From Lutibacter oricola (GTDB lineage: Bacteria; Bacteroidota; Bacteroidia; Flavobacteriales; Flavobacteriaceae): a stretch of 64,000 nt of DNA. The stretch's first letter is position 1, and each line of letters starts with the position of its first letter. The DNA lies in assembly GCF_900106565.1 (NCBI RefSeq), contig NZ_FNNJ01000005.1, positions 62,001 through 126,000 on the forward strand, given 5' to 3'. Shown one piece after another: positions 53,443 through 63,216 of this stretch. The notes under the pieces were generated by a model. It was not told where the DNA came from and did no database searches. It was given only the letters and a program-made list of their open reading frames with translations. Both the position numbers and the translations under genes were made by a program.

Positions 53443-54342
53443 CTAGTAATTCCACATATCTAATTCTTTGTTTCTTATTTCGTCTTTAATCTTATTCGAT
53501 TCAAGAACTTGGAATAAAGCATTACCTTTTACATAATGAGCAACATCTCTATCTCCGTAAATATTTTCTTCTCTATAAATAATTGAATTAAATCTACGAG
53601 CGTTTAATAAATGATCATAAGAAATTGGATATGCAGAATTCTTTTGGTTGAATACTTTCATATTGTGCATAATTTTTCTTGTTGAAGGATACCAAACCCA
53701 AAACAATGCTAATTGTTCACTTATATCCATATCATCTCTACCCATAGTTTGCACATCTGGTGCAACTGGAGCTAGAGCTAACAATCTATACTTTAACTCA
53801 CCTTGACGTTTATCAAAATACCAAAGCCCTTTAACTTTAAAACCTTCGATATCTTGAGATGTTAAGTTAATTCTATCAATATATTCATCAATATTAGTGT
53901 TCCCAGCATTTAATTCATCAAAACCAGCATCAGTAGTATCCACTCTTTGAAGTTTCACAGCAATTTCTGCTTTTGTCATTTTTGCTGTAAAATAAGAATC
54001 ATCATAAATTTCTGTTATCTCACCTGCTTTGATTCCTCTTAATAAAGTGTCAAATAATGAACGTCTATTCATTGAAACATTTGTAGTGTCAACTGGGTAA
54101 TACAGTGGTAAATTTATTCTTTCATTTAAATCAATATACTCCCAAACTACTTTAGACCATAAAATATCTCTATCATCAATATAGCCATAATCTAATGGTT
54201 TATCATTATCATATGCCAATTGACCAGCTGATTTTTTACCTATTTCAGAAGGATTTTTAGCATTCAATAAATTTGATTGCGCCATAGTAACTTGACACAA
54301 CATTAATGCTAAAATAAATATCCCAATGCTTTTCTTGTTCAT
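53443..54342 (-). CDS. gldN: GldN: gliding motility / type IX secretion periplasmic protein
   Basis: A 299-residue secreted protein (signal peptide to about AMAQ|S; ATG at 54342, with a GTG one codon earlier not preferred). It matches GldN/PorN, which forms the periplasmic ring of the type IX secretion system together with GldK. The characteristic region is VDTTNVSMNRRSLFDTLLRG, followed by GEITEIYDDSYF and LWVWYPSTRKIMHNM-like sequence (FWVWYPSTRKIMHNMKVF). It is the last gene of gldK-gldL-gldM-gldN, 15 bp after gldM. Loss of GldN in Flavobacterium abolishes gliding and chitinase secretion. Confidence 0.95.
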   Translation of the reverse strand: MNKKSIGIFILALMLCQVTMAQSNLLNAKNPSEIGKKSAGQLAYDNDKPLDYGYIDDRDILWSKVVWEYIDLNERINLPLYYPVDTTNVSMNRRSLFDTLLRGIKAGEITEIYDDSYFTAKMTKAEIAVKLQRVDTTDAGFDELNAGNTNIDEYIDRINLTSQDIEGFKVKGLWYFDKRQGELKYRLLALAPVAPDVQTMGRDDMDISEQLALFWVWYPSTRKIMHNMKVFNQKNSAYPISYDHLLNARRFNSIIYREENIYGDRDVAHYVKGNALFQVLESNKIKDEIRNKELDMWNY

Positions 54343-54357
54343 CACTTTGAATTTTTA

Positions 54358-55893
54358 TTATTGAATTTCTACACTTACAGGAGAAGCTGGTTTAATTCTA
54401 TAACCAGAGTTTCCTGAAATAGTTGATTTTATATCAAAAAGAGTTACAACATCACCTCTTTTGGCTTTGCTAATAGCTTTTTGAGCTTGTACATTCATTC
54501 TGCTTCCTCTAACAACTACAGCAGATTGACCTGGTACTTTTACAGTAAAACCAGTTGTACTTAATTTTAAATCGAAATCAAAATCTGCCAATTCTACACC
54601 CACTGTTGCCTTACCTAAGCTTGTTTTAGGCATTTTAATATGACCACTTTGTTTTCTTATAGTTCCTCTTGGAGAAGGAATATCTTTAATTCTAAATTTT
54701 TGAGATGAGCTAACTTTTTGTCCATTAGGTAAAGTTCCTGAAACATTAATTGTAACCTCTCTACCAGAACTAGGTGTCATAATATATTTACCAGAACCAC
54801 TTCCTTTTCTTAAACCAGAACCAGTTGCAGTAACTTTATTATCTGGAATACCAGGAATTGAAATAGTCATAGGGTTTACAACACCTCTATAAACTACATT
54901 CATTTTATCTGCTGAAATAACAGCACTGTTAGGTTTTGGGATTACGGCATAAGAACTGTTAATCTCAATTTCAACAGGCTCTCCGTTCTCTATAAAAACA
55001 AACTTTCCTTTTATATCTCTTTCTCCTACACTTCCAGCTGGAAACTCTAAAATAGCACCACCATCTTCAATTTTAGTAACTTTTCGTCCGTTTACTACAA
55101 CTTCAGAAGGTTTTAAAGAGGCATCGTATCTACCCAATACAATTTTACCCTTAAAATTCTCTCCTTGGAAAAAGGCTGATTTTTCTGGAATTAAAATTGT
55201 TTTATAGTTAGACATTGAAACATCACTCTCTAACTGACCACCTAATAGGTTACTAAAAATCTCAGATTGAGTTGTTTTAATATCAGTTTGCATGGCAGTT
55301 AAATTGGTTACTGTAGAAATTAAAGGAAAACCTTCATATCTATTGTTTAACCATGGTTGTAGTTTAATACCATCTTTTATTTCTTGATCTGATGTATCGA
55401 ATCTTTTATTAATTGAAGCCTTTAATGGACTTTTATCTCCTAATAACTCAATTATAGAATTTCTATAACCATTAATGTTATCTAAAAACTTTTGACCTTC
55501 ATCTGTAGGTTTATTATTTTTAAAGAAATACTCATCAACTAAGTTAGATTGATCCATTGTCTCATAATCTGTCTTATCTTCTTTTCCTTCTAAAAAGAAA
55601 GTTTTTTGAGATTCTAAATAAGTATTAAAATCGTTAGACAGTGTATTTACTTTTGAAGCAATTTCATATAAACTTTTATATTTTTCTGGTTGCTCAGAAG
55701 CTTTAGTTGCTAAATTATCAAGTACATCTTGATTTTTAGTTGTTGCTGTTATATTGTTTTCAATTAATTTTTCATTCATATAACCAAATGCAGACAAAAC
55801 TTCCTTAGACATATTCATTGCTAACATAGCAATAAAAACTAAGTACATTAAGTTAATCATTTTCTGCCTTGGTGATAATTTACCTGAAGCCAT
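54358..55893 (-). CDS. gldM: GldM: type IX secretion motor stator protein
   Basis: A 511-residue protein with one N-terminal transmembrane helix (about 12-30, INLMYLVFIAMLAMNMSKEVL) and a long periplasmic part made of several beta-rich domains. It matches GldM/PorM, which with GldL forms the proton-driven rotary motor for gliding and type IX secretion. The N-terminal helix with SPRQKMINLMYLVFIAMLA is the family signature. It follows gldL by 46 bp. The length agrees with known GldM proteins (about 510-520 residues). Confidence 0.96.
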   Translation of the reverse strand: MASGKLSPRQKMINLMYLVFIAMLAMNMSKEVLSAFGYMNEKLIENNITATTKNQDVLDNLATKASEQPEKYKSLYEIASKVNTLSNDFNTYLESQKTFFLEGKEDKTDYETMDQSNLVDEYFFKNNKPTDEGQKFLDNINGYRNSIIELLGDKSPLKASINKRFDTSDQEIKDGIKLQPWLNNRYEGFPLISTVTNLTAMQTDIKTTQSEIFSNLLGGQLESDVSMSNYKTILIPEKSAFFQGENFKGKIVLGRYDASLKPSEVVVNGRKVTKIEDGGAILEFPAGSVGERDIKGKFVFIENGEPVEIEINSSYAVIPKPNSAVISADKMNVVYRGVVNPMTISIPGIPDNKVTATGSGLRKGSGSGKYIMTPSSGREVTINVSGTLPNGQKVSSSQKFRIKDIPSPRGTIRKQSGHIKMPKTSLGKATVGVELADFDFDLKLSTTGFTVKVPGQSAVVVRGSRMNVQAQKAISKAKRGDVVTLFDIKSTISGNSGYRIKPASPVSVEIQ

Positions 55894-55939: not shown

Positions 55940-56590
55940 TTAATTGTTTTTAGGTGCCATAGCAGAAAGCATACCTCCATAAACTCCGTTTAAAGAAGAT
56001 AAATTTGAAGTTAAAGATTCCATTTGCTCTTTTAGTTTACCAGCATTTTCGGCAACTTGTTCGTTTACCTCAGCTTGTCTACTTGTACTTTCTAACTGAA
56101 CTTTATATAAACTATTTAAAGATTCCATTTGTGCAGCAGCCATTGATAGTTGCTCGCTATATTTATTTGTTGCTGCTATAGAGTCAACTGCTGGGGCTAT
56201 ATTATCAGCTGCTCCTTTAAAATTTTGGATGCTTTCTCCTAAGCTCTCCATTAAACCAGCATCAAGCTTAGCCTCTTTTAACATATCGTCTAATTTTTGA
56301 GACAACATACTTTGAGCTTCACCAGCCTCTTTCATTTCTTTATTTTTTCTCATTCCACCAGCTAATTCAGGGTAAACAAGAGACCAATCTAAGTCATCTT
56401 CTACTGGTTCAAATGCTGATATTGCAAATATAATAGCTTCAGTAATTAAACCAATTGCTAACATTACTCCTCCTGTTAAAGGTCCAATACTAAAGTGAGT
56501 AAGTTTAAACAGTGCTCCAATAATTACAATTGATGCTCCAAGCCCATAGGCCATATTAAACATTTTTTTAGTAGATTTAGACTGTGCCAT
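55940..56590 (-). CDS. gldL: GldL: type IX secretion motor proton channel subunit
   Basis: A 216-residue inner-membrane protein with two N-terminal transmembrane helices (about 10-31 and 37-60). The second ends in GLITEAIIFAISAFEP, which carries the conserved glutamate needed for proton flow. The C-terminal two thirds are helical and cytoplasmic. It matches GldL/PorL, which surrounds GldM in a 5:2 ring. It lies 38 bp downstream of gldK and is co-transcribed with it. Confidence 0.96.
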   Translation of the reverse strand: MAQSKSTKKMFNMAYGLGASIVIIGALFKLTHFSIGPLTGGVMLAIGLITEAIIFAISAFEPVEDDLDWSLVYPELAGGMRKNKEMKEAGEAQSMLSQKLDDMLKEAKLDAGLMESLGESIQNFKGAADNIAPAVDSIAATNKYSEQLSMAAAQMESLNSLYKVQLESTSRQAEVNEQVAENAGKLKEQMESLTSNLSSLNGVYGGMLSAMAPKNN

Positions 56591-56628: not shown

Positions 56629-57987
56629 TTATTGTCCAGTAATTGTTGTCCCTAAGAAGTCTTGAACTGTTCTAAATCCAATATAACTTCTAGCTGAATC
56701 AGCATATTCATAATCTCTTGTACTTACTTGTAAAAAGTAAGCAACATCTTTCCAGGATCCTCCTCTAATTACTTTTCTTCTATTATCGTTTATTTCAACA
56801 TTTGGGTTCATTGTAGAACCAATATAGTATGATGCTTCGCTATACGCAGTGTTTGTCCATTCAGAAACGTTACCTGCCATATTATATAATCCATAATCGT
56901 TTGCATTGTACGATTTTGCTTCCATAGTGTATAACGCACCATCTACAGCATAATCTCCTCTACTAGGTTTAAAGTTTGCTAAAAAGCAACCTCTATCACT
57001 TGTTGTATAAGGACCACCCCAAGGGTAAGTTGCAAATTCTAGGCCTCCACGAGCGGCATACTCCCACTCAGCTTCTGTAGCTAATCTAAAGTAAGGAACT
57101 GAACTAGGGTTCTTTTTAGATTTTAAGTAGTCATTTTTCTTTTTAGTTCTCCAACTACAAAAAGCTTTTGCTTGTCCCCAAGAAACACCTACTACAGGAT
57201 AATCATTATAAGCTTGGTGATAAAAATAATCTTGGTGCATTGGATCATTATACGAGTAGTTAAAATCTTTTACCCAAACTGTTGTATCTGGATATACTTC
57301 AACAACTTCACTTTTTATAAAGTCTTTTCTTTCTCCATTACTTCTTGCAGCAGCTTCTTGATCTAACCAAGAGTGTCTGAATTTTAATTTTTTAGTATCT
57401 AAAATTCTAGTTCCATCAAAACTATCTCCAATTGGGATATACATAGAATCCATTACTTCAGAATAATATACATCTGGAAATTCATTTGTTTCCCAAATTA
57501 AATCCTCTTCCCAGCTTAAAGCTCTTCCTTGTAAAGGAGAATTTACATCACCTAAGCTACCATAATTATCCATCATGTATTTTTCATATGGACTCATATT
57601 GGCTGTATCTTGATTTTTAAATTGATAATCTGGCAAAATTATATTAGCATCATCAGACATTAATTCTGAAAACAAAGCTAGTTCAGTTCTTACAATTGAA
57701 TCACGAACCCAGACAACAAATTCTTTATATTCAGAATTTGTTATTTCTGTTTCATCCATATAATATGGACGAACGGTTACTGTTCTTGTAGGTGAGTTTA
57801 ATGCTCCTGCAATATCCTCATCTTCTTTACCCATGGTAAATGAACCACCTGGAATAAGAGTCATTCCTACTGGTTTTTGTGAATGCCATTTGGTTTTTGA
57901 TCTAACACCCATTAATTCTCCTTGGTCGTTAGAACCGCAGCTATACACTAGTAATGCTAATAAAATATACAATGATATTTTCTTCAT
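56629..57987 (-). CDS. gldK: GldK: outer-membrane lipoprotein of type IX secretion system
   Basis: A 452-residue lipoprotein (lipobox VYSC, Cys17) with a formylglycine-generating-enzyme (sulfatase-modifying) fold. The FGE-like core has MTLIPGGSFTMG, MDETEITNSEYKEFV, YPVVGVSWGQAKAFCSWR and the ending GNVSEWTNTAY...VIRGGSWKD. In GldK/PorK this fold is structural and builds the periplasmic ring with GldN. It is first in gldKLMN, with a strong promoter at 58013-58043. The arginase-like and topA genes lie upstream on the same strand. Confidence 0.96.
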   Translation of the reverse strand: MKKISLYILLALLVYSCGSNDQGELMGVRSKTKWHSQKPVGMTLIPGGSFTMGKEDEDIAGALNSPTRTVTVRPYYMDETEITNSEYKEFVVWVRDSIVRTELALFSELMSDDANIILPDYQFKNQDTANMSPYEKYMMDNYGSLGDVNSPLQGRALSWEEDLIWETNEFPDVYYSEVMDSMYIPIGDSFDGTRILDTKKLKFRHSWLDQEAAARSNGERKDFIKSEVVEVYPDTTVWVKDFNYSYNDPMHQDYFYHQAYNDYPVVGVSWGQAKAFCSWRTKKKNDYLKSKKNPSSVPYFRLATEAEWEYAARGGLEFATYPWGGPYTTSDRGCFLANFKPSRGDYAVDGALYTMEAKSYNANDYGLYNMAGNVSEWTNTAYSEASYYIGSTMNPNVEINDNRRKVIRGGSWKDVAYFLQVSTRDYEYADSARSYIGFRTVQDFLGTTITGQ

Positions 57988-58012: not shown

Positions 58013-58043
58013 CAAACCTATTACTATTTATTTTAAAAAACAA
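58013..58043 (-). promoter_or_regulatory. gldK promoter
   Basis: On the minus strand, TTG (58043-58041), a 20-bp spacer and TAGGTTTG (58020-58013), a full match to the Bacteroidota consensus. The gldK ATG is 25 bp downstream, so gldKLMN can be transcribed independently of topA. Confidence 0.8.
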
Positions 58044-58107: not shown

Positions 58108-59268
58108 CTAAACTAATTTTTTCAATGTTCTTATCCATCGATCAGGTATTTCTTGGTTTGTTGCACTAATATAATCTTGGTATGTACAAGGTATTAACGC
58201 ATGTCTTTTAAATTTATTATTCTCATTTAAACTAATTTCCATCCACCATCTTCCACTCTTATTACTTTTATGAAAATTCAATACTTGATCGTCTATTGGA
58301 ACAATATATTTTTTATAATTATCCTTTGTTCCAAACGGATAATCATTTGCTCTATAATTAACACCTTCAATAAAATACCAAATAATTTGCGCTATTAATT
58401 GAGCTGTTTGAGTTTTAGCATCTAACTTTTTATTATACTCATATATTCCAAACGAAGATACTTTATCGCTTATTCCTGCATACCTTGCAATCGCACACAT
58501 ATCTGCTCCACTTAAACCATTTGGAGTTCCGTTATTATTTGCTGGTGCTTCCACATTTTTAATGGCAGAAAGGTCTAAGCTTACAATATCTGCATCTCTT
58601 AGAACTGGTTCAACAATTTTTATATCGTTAAATACTTCTCCTAATCTATAAGTGTCGAAAAACAAATTATCAAGTAAAGCTATTTCGTCTTGAGAATTAA
58701 AGTATGTTTGATAACCAATATTTGTAAAGTTGAATAAATTATTAGGCTCATTCATTACAATTTTACTTAAATATGAATTAGAGTTTAATTCTTCTTCAAT
58801 AGATCCTAAATTAAATTTATTATCAATAGAAACTAAATTTACTGTTTGCTCTAATTTATCGTAAGCTCTATAATTGGCGTATGTTAAGTCTTGACCACCA
58901 CCAATAATAATAGGTATAATTTTATTTCTTATTAAATATGAAATTATTTCACCTAAAGCAAAGTAAGTGTCTTCAATAGTATTTCCTTGAGGAATATCTC
59001 CTAAATCGGCAACTTGAATTGGCCAATTTCCAGGATATAATTTATAAAGTTCTTTTCTAATTTCATCTAAATTATCTCCCGTTCCGTAATTACCAACAGC
59101 TGCTCTACCTTCATTAACACCTACAATTGCTATTTTTTTATTTGATAATTCTGGGAAACCAGAAGACATAGAGTTAATTTCAATACATTTCCCAAATGTT
59201 TGATTTGATTGCATTTTAGCATGTGCTAAAAGTGCCTCATCTACAGGTTTTAAGTATTCGAAATTCAT
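58108..59268 (-). CDS. Arginase/formimidoylglutamase-fold protein, probably catalytically inactive
   Basis: A 386-residue protein of the ureohydrolase (arginase, agmatinase, formimidoylglutamase) fold. The usual metal motifs are degenerate. GGGHD is GGGQD (Gln126). DAHxD is DNKFN (Asp149 kept, His and second Asp replaced by Lys151 and Asn153). The DxD motif is DLS (Asp232 kept, Ser234). Four of six Mn ligands are therefore lost, and arginase-type hydrolysis is unlikely. It lies between topA (49 bp upstream) and gldK (120 bp downstream) on the same strand. It may be a structural or regulatory protein. Databases may call it formimidoylglutamase. Confidence 0.8.
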   Translation of the reverse strand: MNFEYLKPVDEALLAHAKMQSNQTFGKCIEINSMSSGFPELSNKKIAIVGVNEGRAAVGNYGTGDNLDEIRKELYKLYPGNWPIQVADLGDIPQGNTIEDTYFALGEIISYLIRNKIIPIIIGGGQDLTYANYRAYDKLEQTVNLVSIDNKFNLGSIEEELNSNSYLSKIVMNEPNNLFNFTNIGYQTYFNSQDEIALLDNLFFDTYRLGEVFNDIKIVEPVLRDADIVSLDLSAIKNVEAPANNNGTPNGLSGADMCAIARYAGISDKVSSFGIYEYNKKLDAKTQTAQLIAQIIWYFIEGVNYRANDYPFGTKDNYKKYIVPIDDQVLNFHKSNKSGRWWMEISLNENNKFKRHALIPCTYQDYISATNQEIPDRWIRTLKKLV

Positions 59269-59317: not shown

Positions 59318-61801
59318 TTATTTTTTCTTCGTTTTTCTCTTAGCTGGTTTTTTCTTTTTTGTGTTTTTTTCGATAATTCCTTTAACTTCTTCCAAAGTTA
59401 ATTTAGCTGCATCAACAGTTTTTGGTAATTCAATTTTGGTTTTTCCTTTTAAAATATTTGAGCGTCCCCAACGTGCTTTTTCTACACGAATACCTTCTTC
59501 TTCCCAATTATGAATTACTTTTTCTATTTCTTTTCGTTTTTTATCTTCAATTAATTCAACAATATTATCGAAAGTTAAATTATCGAAATCGTATTTTTTG
59601 TTTACATTAATAAACATACTATTCCATTTTATAAATGGACCAAATCTACCAACTCCTTTTTGAACTGGTAAATTTTCGTATTCTGCAACAGGAGCATCAG
59701 CTTCACGTTTTTCTTCAATCAATTCAATAGATCTATCCAAATCAATTGTCATTGGGTTTTCTCCTCTTGGAATTGACACATACATAGTATCAAACTTTAC
59801 ATAAGGTCCAAATCTACCATTTGCTACAATTACATCTATATCTTCATAAGTACCAATTGTTTTAGGTAACTTAAATAGTTCTAATGCTTCTTCGTAAGTA
59901 ATTGAAGTTAATGTTTGCTCTCCTTGTAAACTTGCAAAACGTGGCTTTTCTTCATCTGTTGCCTCGCCAATTTGAACCATAGCTCCAAATCTACCCAACC
60001 TAGCATATACGTTTTTACCACTTTCTGGATCTACACCTAATAAACGTTCTCCTGTAGCTCTACTTGCATTTTGAGAAACATCTTCAACCAATGGGTTAAA
60101 AGTTCCATAAAACTCTTTTATCATTGAAATCCAATCTTCTTTACCTGCTGCAATTTCATCAAACTCATTTTCTACTTTGGCTGTAAAACCAAAATCTAAT
60201 ACTCCTGAAAAGTTTGCTACTAAAAAGTCGTTTACAATATTTCCAATATCTGTTGGCACTAACTTTCCTTTATCCGCACCTACTTTTTCTGTTAACGTTT
60301 TATCTTCAACAATACCATTAGATAATTCTAATTGGCAATAATTTCTTTCAACGCCTTCAACAGTTCCTTTTACAATATACTCTCTACGCTGAATTGTTGA
60401 AATTGTTGGTGCATATGTAGATGGACGTCCAATACCTAATTCTTCTAATTGCTTTACTAAAGAAGCCTCTGTAAATCTATAAGGTGCTTTTGTATAACGT
60501 TCTGTTGCTGTAATAAAGTTATCGGTTACTGTTTCTCCTATTTTTAAGTTAGGCAGCATTCCTGCCTGCTCTTCATCTTCATTATCGTTTCCTTCTAAAT
60601 ATACTTTTAAAAACCCTTCAAACTTTATCATTTCACCATTTGCTGTAAAAATCTTTTTATTGTTTGAATTTGAAACTCTTACGTTTGTACGCTCCAATTG
60701 AGCATCACTCATTTGAGATGCTACTGTTCTTTTCCAAATTAAATCGTACAACCTATCTTGGTCATAATCTACCGAAACAGTATGTGTACTCATATTTGTA
60801 GGTCTAATGGCTTCGTGGGCTTCTTGCGCTCCTTTAGATTTTGTACTAAAGTTTCTTGGATGGCTATACTCCTCTCCATATGAAGAAATAATTTCTTCTT
60901 GCGCATTGTTTTTAGCATCGTCAGATAAGTTTACACTATCTGTTCTCATATAAGTAATTAAACCAGCTTCATATAAACGTTGCGCCATCATCATGGTTTT
61001 GGCTACCGGAAAATATAATTTTCTAGCTGCTTCTTGTTGCAATGTTGAAGTTGTAAAAGGTGCTGCTGGAGATTTTTTTGCAGGTTTTTTTTGTAAATCT
61101 GCAATTTTAAAATCTGCATCTATGCAAGAATTTAAAAAATCTGATGCTTCTTTTTTAGTTTTAAAATTTGAAGGTAATGTAGCTCTAAACTTTTTACCAT
61201 CTTCTGAAAGAAATTCAGCGACTACCTTATAAGATTCTACTGGTTTAAAAGCTTCAATAGATCTTTCTCTTTCTACAATTAACCTAACTGCAACCGATTG
61301 CACTCTACCTGCAGATAAACCTCCTTTTACTTTTCTCCAAAGTACTGGCGACAATTTATAACCAACTAACCTATCTAAAACTCTACGAGCTTGCTGTGCG
61401 TTAACTAAGTTATAATCAATTGCTCTAGGATTTTCTACTGCTTTTAAAATTGCTTTTTTAGTAATTTCATGAAAAACAATTCTTTTAGTAGCATCATCTT
61501 TCAACTTTAATTGCTCAAATAAATGCCAAGCAATTGCTTCTCCTTCACGATCCTCATCAGATGCTAACCAAACAGTATCGGCTTTTTTTGCTAAAGATTT
61601 TAATTTTTTTACTACTGCTTTTTTATCTGTTGAAACTTCATAATTTGGTAAAAAATCACCATCTACATTTATCCCAATTTCATTTGAAGGCAAGTCCGCA
61701 ATATGTCCAAAACTAGACTCAACTTGATAATCTTTTCCTAAAAACTTCTCAATTGTTTTTGCTTTTGCTGGTGACTCTACTATAACTAAATTCTTCGCCA
61801 T
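59318..61801 (-). CDS. topA: DNA topoisomerase I
   Basis: An 827-residue type IA topoisomerase that relaxes negative supercoils. The TOPRIM domain starts NLVIVESPAKAKTIEKFLG with DEDREGEAIAWHL. The active-site tyrosine (about 284) is in GLITYMRTDSVNLS. Zinc-finger cysteines of the E. coli type are absent. The C-terminus instead has three GRFG repeats (LGRFGAMVQIG, NGRFGPYVKFD, VGRFGPFIKWN) and a lysine-rich tail. Its promoter, TTG-21 bp-TACTTTTG, is at 61875-61906. The arginase-like gene follows by 49 bp. Confidence 0.96.
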   Translation of the reverse strand: MAKNLVIVESPAKAKTIEKFLGKDYQVESSFGHIADLPSNEIGINVDGDFLPNYEVSTDKKAVVKKLKSLAKKADTVWLASDEDREGEAIAWHLFEQLKLKDDATKRIVFHEITKKAILKAVENPRAIDYNLVNAQQARRVLDRLVGYKLSPVLWRKVKGGLSAGRVQSVAVRLIVERERSIEAFKPVESYKVVAEFLSEDGKKFRATLPSNFKTKKEASDFLNSCIDADFKIADLQKKPAKKSPAAPFTTSTLQQEAARKLYFPVAKTMMMAQRLYEAGLITYMRTDSVNLSDDAKNNAQEEIISSYGEEYSHPRNFSTKSKGAQEAHEAIRPTNMSTHTVSVDYDQDRLYDLIWKRTVASQMSDAQLERTNVRVSNSNNKKIFTANGEMIKFEGFLKVYLEGNDNEDEEQAGMLPNLKIGETVTDNFITATERYTKAPYRFTEASLVKQLEELGIGRPSTYAPTISTIQRREYIVKGTVEGVERNYCQLELSNGIVEDKTLTEKVGADKGKLVPTDIGNIVNDFLVANFSGVLDFGFTAKVENEFDEIAAGKEDWISMIKEFYGTFNPLVEDVSQNASRATGERLLGVDPESGKNVYARLGRFGAMVQIGEATDEEKPRFASLQGEQTLTSITYEEALELFKLPKTIGTYEDIDVIVANGRFGPYVKFDTMYVSIPRGENPMTIDLDRSIELIEEKREADAPVAEYENLPVQKGVGRFGPFIKWNSMFINVNKKYDFDNLTFDNIVELIEDKKRKEIEKVIHNWEEEGIRVEKARWGRSNILKGKTKIELPKTVDAAKLTLEEVKGIIEKNTKKKKPAKRKTKKK

Positions 61802-61874: not shown

Positions 61875-61906
61875 CAAAAGTATGTAGATTTTTTTTAACT
61901 TTACAA
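61875..61906 (-). promoter_or_regulatory. topA promoter
   Basis: Minus strand: TTG at 61906-61904, a 21-bp spacer and TACTTTTG at 61882-61875. This is a near-ideal Bacteroidota promoter, 73 bp before the topA ATG. Confidence 0.75.
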
Positions 61907-61992: not shown

Positions 61993-63216
61993 TTAGTTTA
62001 GATTAAATGTACTTAATAAGTTTAAACCTGATTCTTGATAAGAATATTGATATAAAACTCCATCTCCTATCATTAATAAATTTGAAGCTAACGGAATTAC
62101 ATCGTACGTATTGATGTTTTCAAAATGATTCAACAGTTTTAAATCTTGAACATTACTCTTATCATATACTTTTAAACCAGAATCACCATCGCAAATAAAA
62201 ACTTTTTCATCTTTAACACCTAAACCGTAAGGACTATCCATTAAATAGGATTTTTCTAATACCGGATTTTTTAAATCTTCAATATTTACAATTTGTAAAC
62301 TGCTATCAAAAGCACCACATAAATTACCCGCTCTTAAAGTAATATAAGCATATTTATCATCTACCACTACAGGATCGCAGGCAGTACCGTGTTGAAATTC
62401 AGAAATAAAAGTTGGTGTACTTGGGTTCGAAATATTGTAGATATACATTCCAGACATGCTACCTATAAATAAATGATCGTCTTTATTAAAAATAGTTTCA
62501 ATGTCAAATCCCGCATGAACACTTTCTAACTTTTTAGGTTCATCTAAATTTTGAATACCAAACACATTTATATTGTGACTATCTACAACATATAAATAAT
62601 CTTCAACAATTTTAAATCGAGCCAATGACCCACCAGTTCCAACATTAGAAGCTTCTGCTGTTGCAAAAACCATATCATCGATATAATAACTGGTTTCGTT
62701 TTTTAACCTTTTCTCTTTTGTAATTACCCAATCTACCGGCAAACTTTCTTGAGTATTAAATGAAGACCAATCTACATCATCTGCTCCTTCAGGAATATTG
62801 TAGTAATAATAAAATACATCTTTTAAAATATTTACCTGTTTAATATTGTCAATATTCGAAATATCAAACACAACTAAATCAACCAAACTATTTGCATACA
62901 ATTTATTGTCTTTTACAGAAATATCTACATTACCAGGAATATTTAAAAACCCAATCTTTTTAGGATTTTCTGGATTTCTATTATCTATAATATGCACACC
63001 TTTATTTGCATCATTTACAAAAACATAATAATTATAGGTGTAAATTTTACCAGACTCTTCAATTTCTCTTGGAGGTAACAAATTGAATGAAGCTCTAATT
63101 TCACTCAAATCCATTAAAACAGGAGTAGCTAAGTTATAATATTCATATTCTTCATTTTCATCACAAGAAACCAGCACCAAAAAATAGAACACAACTAAAA
63201 AGTAAAGCTTTTTCAT
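61993..63216 (-). CDS. LVIVD-repeat lipoprotein
   Basis: A 407-residue predicted lipoprotein (lipobox LVSC, Cys18). The mature part is made of beta-propeller-like repeats with the LVIVD pattern: GVHIIDNRNPENPKKIGF, LVVFDISNIDNIKQVN, INVFGIQNLDEPKKLE, GMYIYNISNPSTPTFI, LQIVNIEDLKNPVLEK and LKVYDKSNVQDLKLLN. Such proteins are probably surface or periplasmic and are thought to bind partners rather than catalyse a reaction. The gene stands alone, divergent from miaB. Confidence 0.82.
   Translation of the reverse strand: MKKLYFLVVFYFLVLVSCDENEEYEYYNLATPVLMDLSEIRASFNLLPPREIEESGKIYTYNYYVFVNDANKGVHIIDNRNPENPKKIGFLNIPGNVDISVKDNKLYANSLVDLVVFDISNIDNIKQVNILKDVFYYYYNIPEGADDVDWSSFNTQESLPVDWVITKEKRLKNETSYYIDDMVFATAEASNVGTGGSLARFKIVEDYLYVVDSHNINVFGIQNLDEPKKLESVHAGFDIETIFNKDDHLFIGSMSGMYIYNISNPSTPTFISEFQHGTACDPVVVDDKYAYITLRAGNLCGAFDSSLQIVNIEDLKNPVLEKSYLMDSPYGLGVKDEKVFICDGDSGLKVYDKSNVQDLKLLNHFENINTYDVIPLASNLLMIGDGVLYQYSYQESGLNLLSTFNLN

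Follow-up and report, generated by a model that had tools for sequence, protein, structure and literature searches.

The gene directly upstream of gldKLMN in Lutibacter oricola encodes, judging from its sequence, a pseudoenzyme with the arginase fold. It represents Lutibacter in a class-wide family of such proteins that forms a single clade. The pseudoenzyme status of the protein and its family is near certain. Across an entire bacterial class, most of the genomes sampled retain the family, and its gene often lies close to those of the rotary secretion motor. In view of linkage and co-occurrence, a role as partner of the type IX secretion system (T9SS) and gliding machinery, or as its regulator, is the best single reading. 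The protein may thus be a cytoplasmic adaptor or regulator that is no longer a ureohydrolase and is tied to this machinery, a reading about which we are evenly divided.

The window (the whole stretch of 64,000 nucleotides of L. oricola DNA that was analyzed) carries topA upstream of the pseudoenzyme gene and the four gld genes downstream of it, all on the minus strand:

59318..61801, minus strand: topA, 49 bp upstream of the pseudoenzyme gene (TIGR01051, 702.9 bits, cut-off 456.4)
58108..59268, minus strand: arginase-fold pseudoenzyme gene, 386 aa, ATG start (open reading frame, PF00491, AF2 model, fold matches, hydropathy)
56629..57987, minus strand: gldK, ring lipoprotein with the FGE fold (TIGR03525, 587.4 bits, cut-off 350; PF03781)
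55940..56590, minus strand: gldL, motor subunit (TIGR03513, over cut-off)
54358..55893, minus strand: gldM, motor subunit (TIGR03517, over cut-off)
53443..54345, minus strand: gldN, ring subunit (TIGR03523, over cut-off)

The profile matches of these neighbours bear out the originally predicted position between topA and gldKLMN on one strand. The 16 closest named loci of the pseudoenzyme gene are from Lutibacter (74-81% identity). The reading frame upstream of topA (61993-63216, minus strand) has a weak match to the LVIVD repeat and no NCBIfam match at E 1e-10.

Fold, metal-binding site and C-terminal module

By its fold the window protein belongs to the ureohydrolase (arginase) superfamily. 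Pfam family PF00491 (Arginase) matches residues 45-299 with 59.5 bits (cut-off 22), the AF2 model has a mean pLDDT of 91.1, and the best solved-structure matches are formiminoglutamases, with Z 36 over 278 residues. The fold is common to the window protein and HutG of B. subtilis (3m1r) and T. cruzi (4mxr, 2a0m) over about residues 20-308 (Z 34-36, 17-18% identity). Unlike HutG, the window protein stays below the hutG cut-off, has lost metal ligands and carries an extra C-terminal module of 82 residues. The hutG model is nevertheless its best NCBIfam match (82.2 bits, cut-off 229.15), and the agmatinase model reaches 29.9 bits, below its cut-off of 174.3; seven relatives that were scanned likewise stay under cut-off. 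Similarity would label the pseudoenzyme as a formimidoylglutamase or agmatinase, which may explain why it has been overlooked.

The six ligand positions are listed below with the residue counts in 128 sequences. These are the distinct Flavobacteriaceae members, that of the window included, with identical sequences merged and four intact paralogues set apart.

58891..58893, minus strand: Gln126 codon, where the first His ligand is expected (Q 122, H 5 of 128; His in intact relatives)
58822..58824, minus strand: Asp149 codon, ligand retained (128 of 128)
58816..58818, minus strand: Lys151 codon, where the second His ligand is expected (K 78, R 33, H 1 of 128)
58810..58812, minus strand: Asn153 codon, where an Asp ligand is expected; minority state (D 116, N 12 of 128)
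58573..58575, minus strand: Asp232 codon, ligand retained (126 of 128)
58567..58569, minus strand: Ser234 codon, where an Asp ligand is expected (D in 2 of 128)

None of the 128 sequences has the complete six-ligand set, the maximum retained being four, and residue 234 is N, G, S or T in 105 of them. Among 66 distinct sequences from 44 other families, six ligands occur in none, three in 45 and four in five; this set includes two sequences that are cut short (L172 and L211) and some that align poorly at the ligands (L199-L202). Some of the 66 retain one ligand or none (EGKNDG in family f37, PGQHES in f3, ATRPNG in f28), and five families (f3, f28, f34, f37 and f52) have at most two ligands left and retain the remaining family signature. 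All four intact Flavobacteriaceae relatives in the alignment read HDHDDD at the six positions. The same holds for 22 of the 28 rows of outside relatives, the departures being Asn for the first His (two rows), Asn for Asp153 (one row) and Cys for Asp232 (three rows, two distinct). The six-ligand binuclear metal site of catalytic arginase, agmatinase or formimidoylglutamase is thus complete in no member of either set. The absence of orthologs with intact ligands from these sets, together with the Pfam match and the fold model, upholds the original prediction of an arginase-fold pseudoenzyme.

The same prediction had four of the six ligands replaced. This is correct for the window protein (Gln126, Lys151, Asn153 and Ser234) but had to be rejected as a statement about the family. 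Since Asp153 is retained in most members, the family-wide losses number three (His126, His151 and Asp234). With both metal-binding His residues and Asp234 lost, canonical ureohydrolysis by the pseudoenzyme appears very unlikely, a conclusion that we hold with little doubt.

It might be argued that the protein is still an enzyme, either with one metal on Asp149, Asp153 and Asp232 or with a metal-free activity. These three residues are indeed widely kept, as the counts above indicate, and their columns are among the less variable ones (9th to 14th percentile of column entropy). However, the window protein itself has Asn153, and the five families with two or fewer ligands keep the rest of the signature intact. 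Moreover, the variability of columns 126, 151 and 234 (42nd, 73rd and 53rd percentile) is close to or above the column average. As far as sequence conservation can tell, residual catalysis seems quite improbable.

The region beyond the shared fold forms a module of its own:

58111..58356, minus strand: C-terminal module, residues 305-386, predicted to have four strands and two helices; F332, RWW340-342, C361, DY365-366

Among the matches listed, solved structures align no further than residue 312 of the window protein, and the module is missing from the aligned intact relatives. Its predicted structure has a pLDDT of 77.5. It has no Pfam match over cut-off in three members and no Foldseek match at E 0.001, and the best structural Z for the module alone is 3.8. 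The residues invariant in a 45-sequence alignment (E220, R224, G251, G265, W297, F332, W341 and C361) include no metal ligand; in an alignment of 44 members, too, residues other than the ligands are invariant. In the other-family sequences WW (341-342) is found in 64 of 66 and YAG (263-265) in 54 of 66. Strong conservation of residues other than the ligands, combined with the new module, argues for a binding role. In a quick maximum-likelihood tree of 72 proteins a single branch (SH-aLRT 100, length 1.2) separates all 45 pseudoenzymes from the other proteins. The window protein has no hydrophobic N-terminal stretch (the best 19-residue mean there is 0.03), and its highest hydropathy, 1.36 at residue 104, lies within the fold. 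The lack of such a stretch points to a cytoplasmic location.

Occurrence across genomes

The gene is present as an open frame in 97 of 100 same-family (Flavobacteriaceae) genomes, which excludes a chance reading frame or a pseudogene. GldK is found in the same 97, and the three genomes without either are 88% complete. At the class level (296 genomes; thresholds E 1e-15 for the pseudoenzyme and 1e-50 for GldK) the pseudoenzyme occurs in 280 genomes and GldK in 285: both are present in 275, the gene only in five, GldK only in ten and neither in six. Most of the motor-bearing relatives sampled thus keep the gene, which makes a binding or regulatory job probable.

All ten GldK-only genomes have GldM. 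A wider profile revealed no family-type match in them: there was nothing in eight, a near-intact enzyme in one (G384, HDHDCD) and a marginal match with stops in another (G373). Given ten T9SS genomes without it, the pseudoenzyme is not an obligate part of the T9SS. Among the gene-only genomes, two have GldM matches (G241 and G324) and two are fragmented and lack GldM (G155 and G366). The fifth (G325), which is 99% complete, has the pseudoenzyme and no match to GldK, GldL or GldM. Two of the six double-negative genomes are reduced (0.5 and 1.2 Mb) and three come from family f32, two GldK-bearing members of which likewise lack the pseudoenzyme. As reduced genomes and f32 make up most of the double negatives, co-absence is weak evidence; independent losses are few in the 296-genome sample. 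Fisher values were computed as well, but they take no account of descent and do not count as proof here.

Among 148 genomes of the phylum, the full-length gene (reaching at least profile position 382) is found in 37 of 37 in-class genomes and in none of the 111 from other classes. Of the latter, 45 match at E 1e-10, none of them beyond profile position 317. GldK over cut-off is likewise present in 37 of 37 and 0 of 111, with weaker matches in 8 of the 111. The full-length gene is therefore not equally common where gldKLMN is lacking, in a comparison in which class membership and T9SS presence are confounded.

Gene order and transcription

Within Flavobacteriaceae the gene order is strongly conserved. 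In all 80 named loci gldK lies directly downstream, at about 83-274 bp, and topA lies upstream in 77 of the 78 with enough flanking sequence; when positions in the 100 genomes were compared by eye, the pseudoenzyme and GldK genes were found far apart in one (G023). Linkage extends across families, the two genes lying within 6 kb in the same orientation in 86 of 99 class genomes, a set that has both positions among the matches listed, favours better scores and excludes the window. In two of the 13 unlinked cases (G106 and G391) the contig breaks off right after porP or the pseudoenzyme gene. Yet among more divergent families linkage is rare. We examined 44 hand-picked genomes, mainly one per weaker-scoring family, of which 31 have a pseudoenzyme match; the gene is linked to gldK in four of these and unlinked in 27. 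The gene order on which the original prediction drew thus holds in nearly all the named Flavobacteriaceae loci but not in many divergent families. We rejected the possibility of a mere operon passenger, as the gene persists in families where it is unlinked.

The starts of the two genes are 2.3-3.6 kb apart (median 2.4) in the 76 linked genomes outside Flavobacteriaceae, which leaves space for one gene between them. This gene is PorP_SprF in all three linked loci scanned. topA is present in 18 of 19 linked loci (L203-L221, chosen because linked), and the commonest order outside Flavobacteriaceae is topA-pseudoarginase-porP-gldK. From its spread, rather than from a reconstruction, we infer that this order is ancestral and that porP later left this spot in Flavobacteriaceae.

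topA adjoins the pseudoenzyme gene at least as tightly as gldK does. Rank correlations of distances for the pseudoenzyme versus GldK (0.44) and GldL (0.53), set beside that versus topA (0.49), indicate no special tie to T9SS genes. The pseudoenzyme might belong to the topA transcription unit and serve DNA topology or chromosome or expression control, its proximity to porP-gldKLMN being a matter of old gene order. In 17 loci from other families the pseudoenzyme start lies -4 to 161 nt from the topA stop, with two overlaps. topA also stays beside the gene where gldK is 190 kb away (G226) or on another contig (G245). In two f2 genomes with gldK elsewhere, topA is adjacent in one and within 2.6 kb in the other. 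The positions of promoter motifs agree with such a unit:

58013..58043, minus strand: Bacteroidota-type promoter motif (TTG, spacer, TAnnTTTG) downstream of the pseudoenzyme gene and ahead of gldK

A second copy of this motif, which we take to be the Bacteroidota-type promoter, precedes topA at 61906 (minus strand). Over the whole window the motif occurs 17 times versus about 13 in shuffles. Of the 80 Flavobacteriaceae loci, 18 have it in the 260 nt that follow the pseudoenzyme gene (2.15 in shuffles) and two in the 150 nt that precede the gene. Scans for sigma-70 promoters and terminators gave chance level only. Given the motif positions, transcription of gldKLMN may start from a separate promoter, and that of the pseudoenzyme may proceed mainly together with topA.

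Other loci do not fit a role in the topA unit. One f20 genome has the gene by porP-gldK without topA, and two f61 genera have it by a GldJ-like locus. Furthermore, most of 42 loci, nearly all from genomes in which the gene is unlinked to gldK, have neither topA nor gldK beside it. As topA is a housekeeping gene, such a role also does not predict the absence of the full-length gene from the 111 other-class genomes. Overall, we consider it unlikely that the pseudoenzyme acts as part of the topA unit.

Where gldK is elsewhere, an extended SDR recurs as a second neighbour. It is found in the vicinity of the gene in 15 of the 42 loci (L224, L227, L229, L235, L238, L240, L242, L320-L322, L324, L327, L329, L330 and L333), 13 of them divergent and directly adjacent. 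Its identity comes from Pfam in five loci and from NCBIfam in two, where the nearest model is HpnA, under cut-off. In the two f61 genera a much diverged pseudoenzyme gene adjoins a murF-type gene and a GldJ-like lipoprotein gene (L232:3-4284, L233:2652-6538). The murF assignment was confirmed in L232, the same cluster is present in L233, and a PorP-family gene precedes in L232; the GldJ-like matches score 410 and 404 bits, short of the 458-bit cut-off. In another genome the GldK domain is the end of a 2885-codon open frame (L308, G254:C1:2263400-2270000), and within the 2200 residues scanned Pfam recognised only the FGE domain.

Possible role and relation to known systems

The original prediction pointed to GldK as another protein that reuses an enzyme fold, and the PF03781 match agrees with this. 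GldK/PorK, encoded at the same locus as the pseudoenzyme, reportedly employs the FGE enzyme fold for structure (PMC12421860). Unlike the pseudoenzyme, it is a ring lipoprotein on the outer-membrane side and thus differs in both fold and compartment. Gene order and co-occurrence are consistent with the proposed involvement in gliding or secretion; the ten T9SS genomes without the gene, G325, the unlinked genes (27 of 31 and 13 of 99) and the tightness of topA speak against it.

Under the preferred reading of a cytoplasmic adaptor or regulator, the pseudoenzyme would no longer hydrolyse guanidino compounds and would retain the arginase fold as a scaffold for protein binding or small-ligand sensing. 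Binding would probably take place through the YAG region and the RWW module at the C-terminus. The protein would serve the type IX secretion/gliding machinery as an accessory or as a regulator. Of the possible cytoplasmic targets, the tail of the motor protein GldL would be the most exposed. Cytoplasmic motor partners do exist, since PorX, according to a passage in PMC5005315, binds the PorL cytoplasmic domain. PorX is a cytoplasmic CheY-like response regulator and is likened to the pseudoenzyme by reported role only. By analogy, the pseudoenzyme might contact the GldL tail, where PorX reportedly binds in another species, a guess that is rather unlikely to be right. More broadly, the family could form an as yet unrecognised part of the T9SS/gliding motor, or its regulator, in the cytoplasm throughout the class: a dead ureohydrolase with a new C-terminal binding module would contact the GldL tail and set motor assembly or activity. 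We offer this as tentative and doubtful.

The usual GldL ending is YGNMLxAM, and deviating tails were seen in L286, L289, L293, L296, L297 and L302. In families f55, f32 and f65, where the gene is absent, the tail reads Y-x-x-x-x-x-A-M-T-x-N-M and continues beyond, in f55 into Gln/Pro-rich stretches. The gene is likewise absent in f66, f19 and f72, and there the end motif is not the deviating one. The relation between GldL tails and gene absence is mixed and confounded by descent.

Ureohydrolase-superfamily pseudoenzymes with a known role are few, according to a passage in PMC11271267, which describes MetCb as a metal-free, non-catalytic partner subunit with the ureohydrolase fold in metformin hydrolase. 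Metformin hydrolase chains match our model at Z about 32-33 (the inactive and the active chain not being distinguished). By this precedent, the pseudoenzyme could be a non-catalytic subunit whose partner is an intact ureohydrolase from the same cell, on the model of MetCb and MetCa, and the source genome does hold one further PF00491 match with all six ligands present (HDHDDD). However, a second match occurs in only 10 of the 37 in-class genomes (at E 1e-10, which misses more distant arginases); four of the ten were examined and all are intact. Unlike for MetCb, no paired intact subunit is encoded in the 42 loci, none of which has a second family or ureohydrolase match. MetCb is also catabolic, with its intact partner encoded alongside, whereas the pseudoenzyme is class-wide and lies beside topA, porP and gldKLMN. 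Such pairing strikes us as very doubtful.

None of the papers listed in our literature searches, which reach few subscription journals and preprints, describes the pseudoenzyme gene. The word 'arginase' is absent from the main texts of PMC12635249, PMC8754138, PMC12239597, PMC8986121, PMC5879114 and PMC7712824, as are 'formimidoylglutamase' and 'agmatinase' from that of PMC7440613. In P. gingivalis the gene numbered next to porP is PGN_1678/PG0286. A passage in PMC6994654 lists PGN_1678 as a hypothetical protein whose change in a ppGpp-null mutant had the same direction as that of porPKLMN, and PG_0286 appears as uncharacterized in a proteomics table of PMC12119571.
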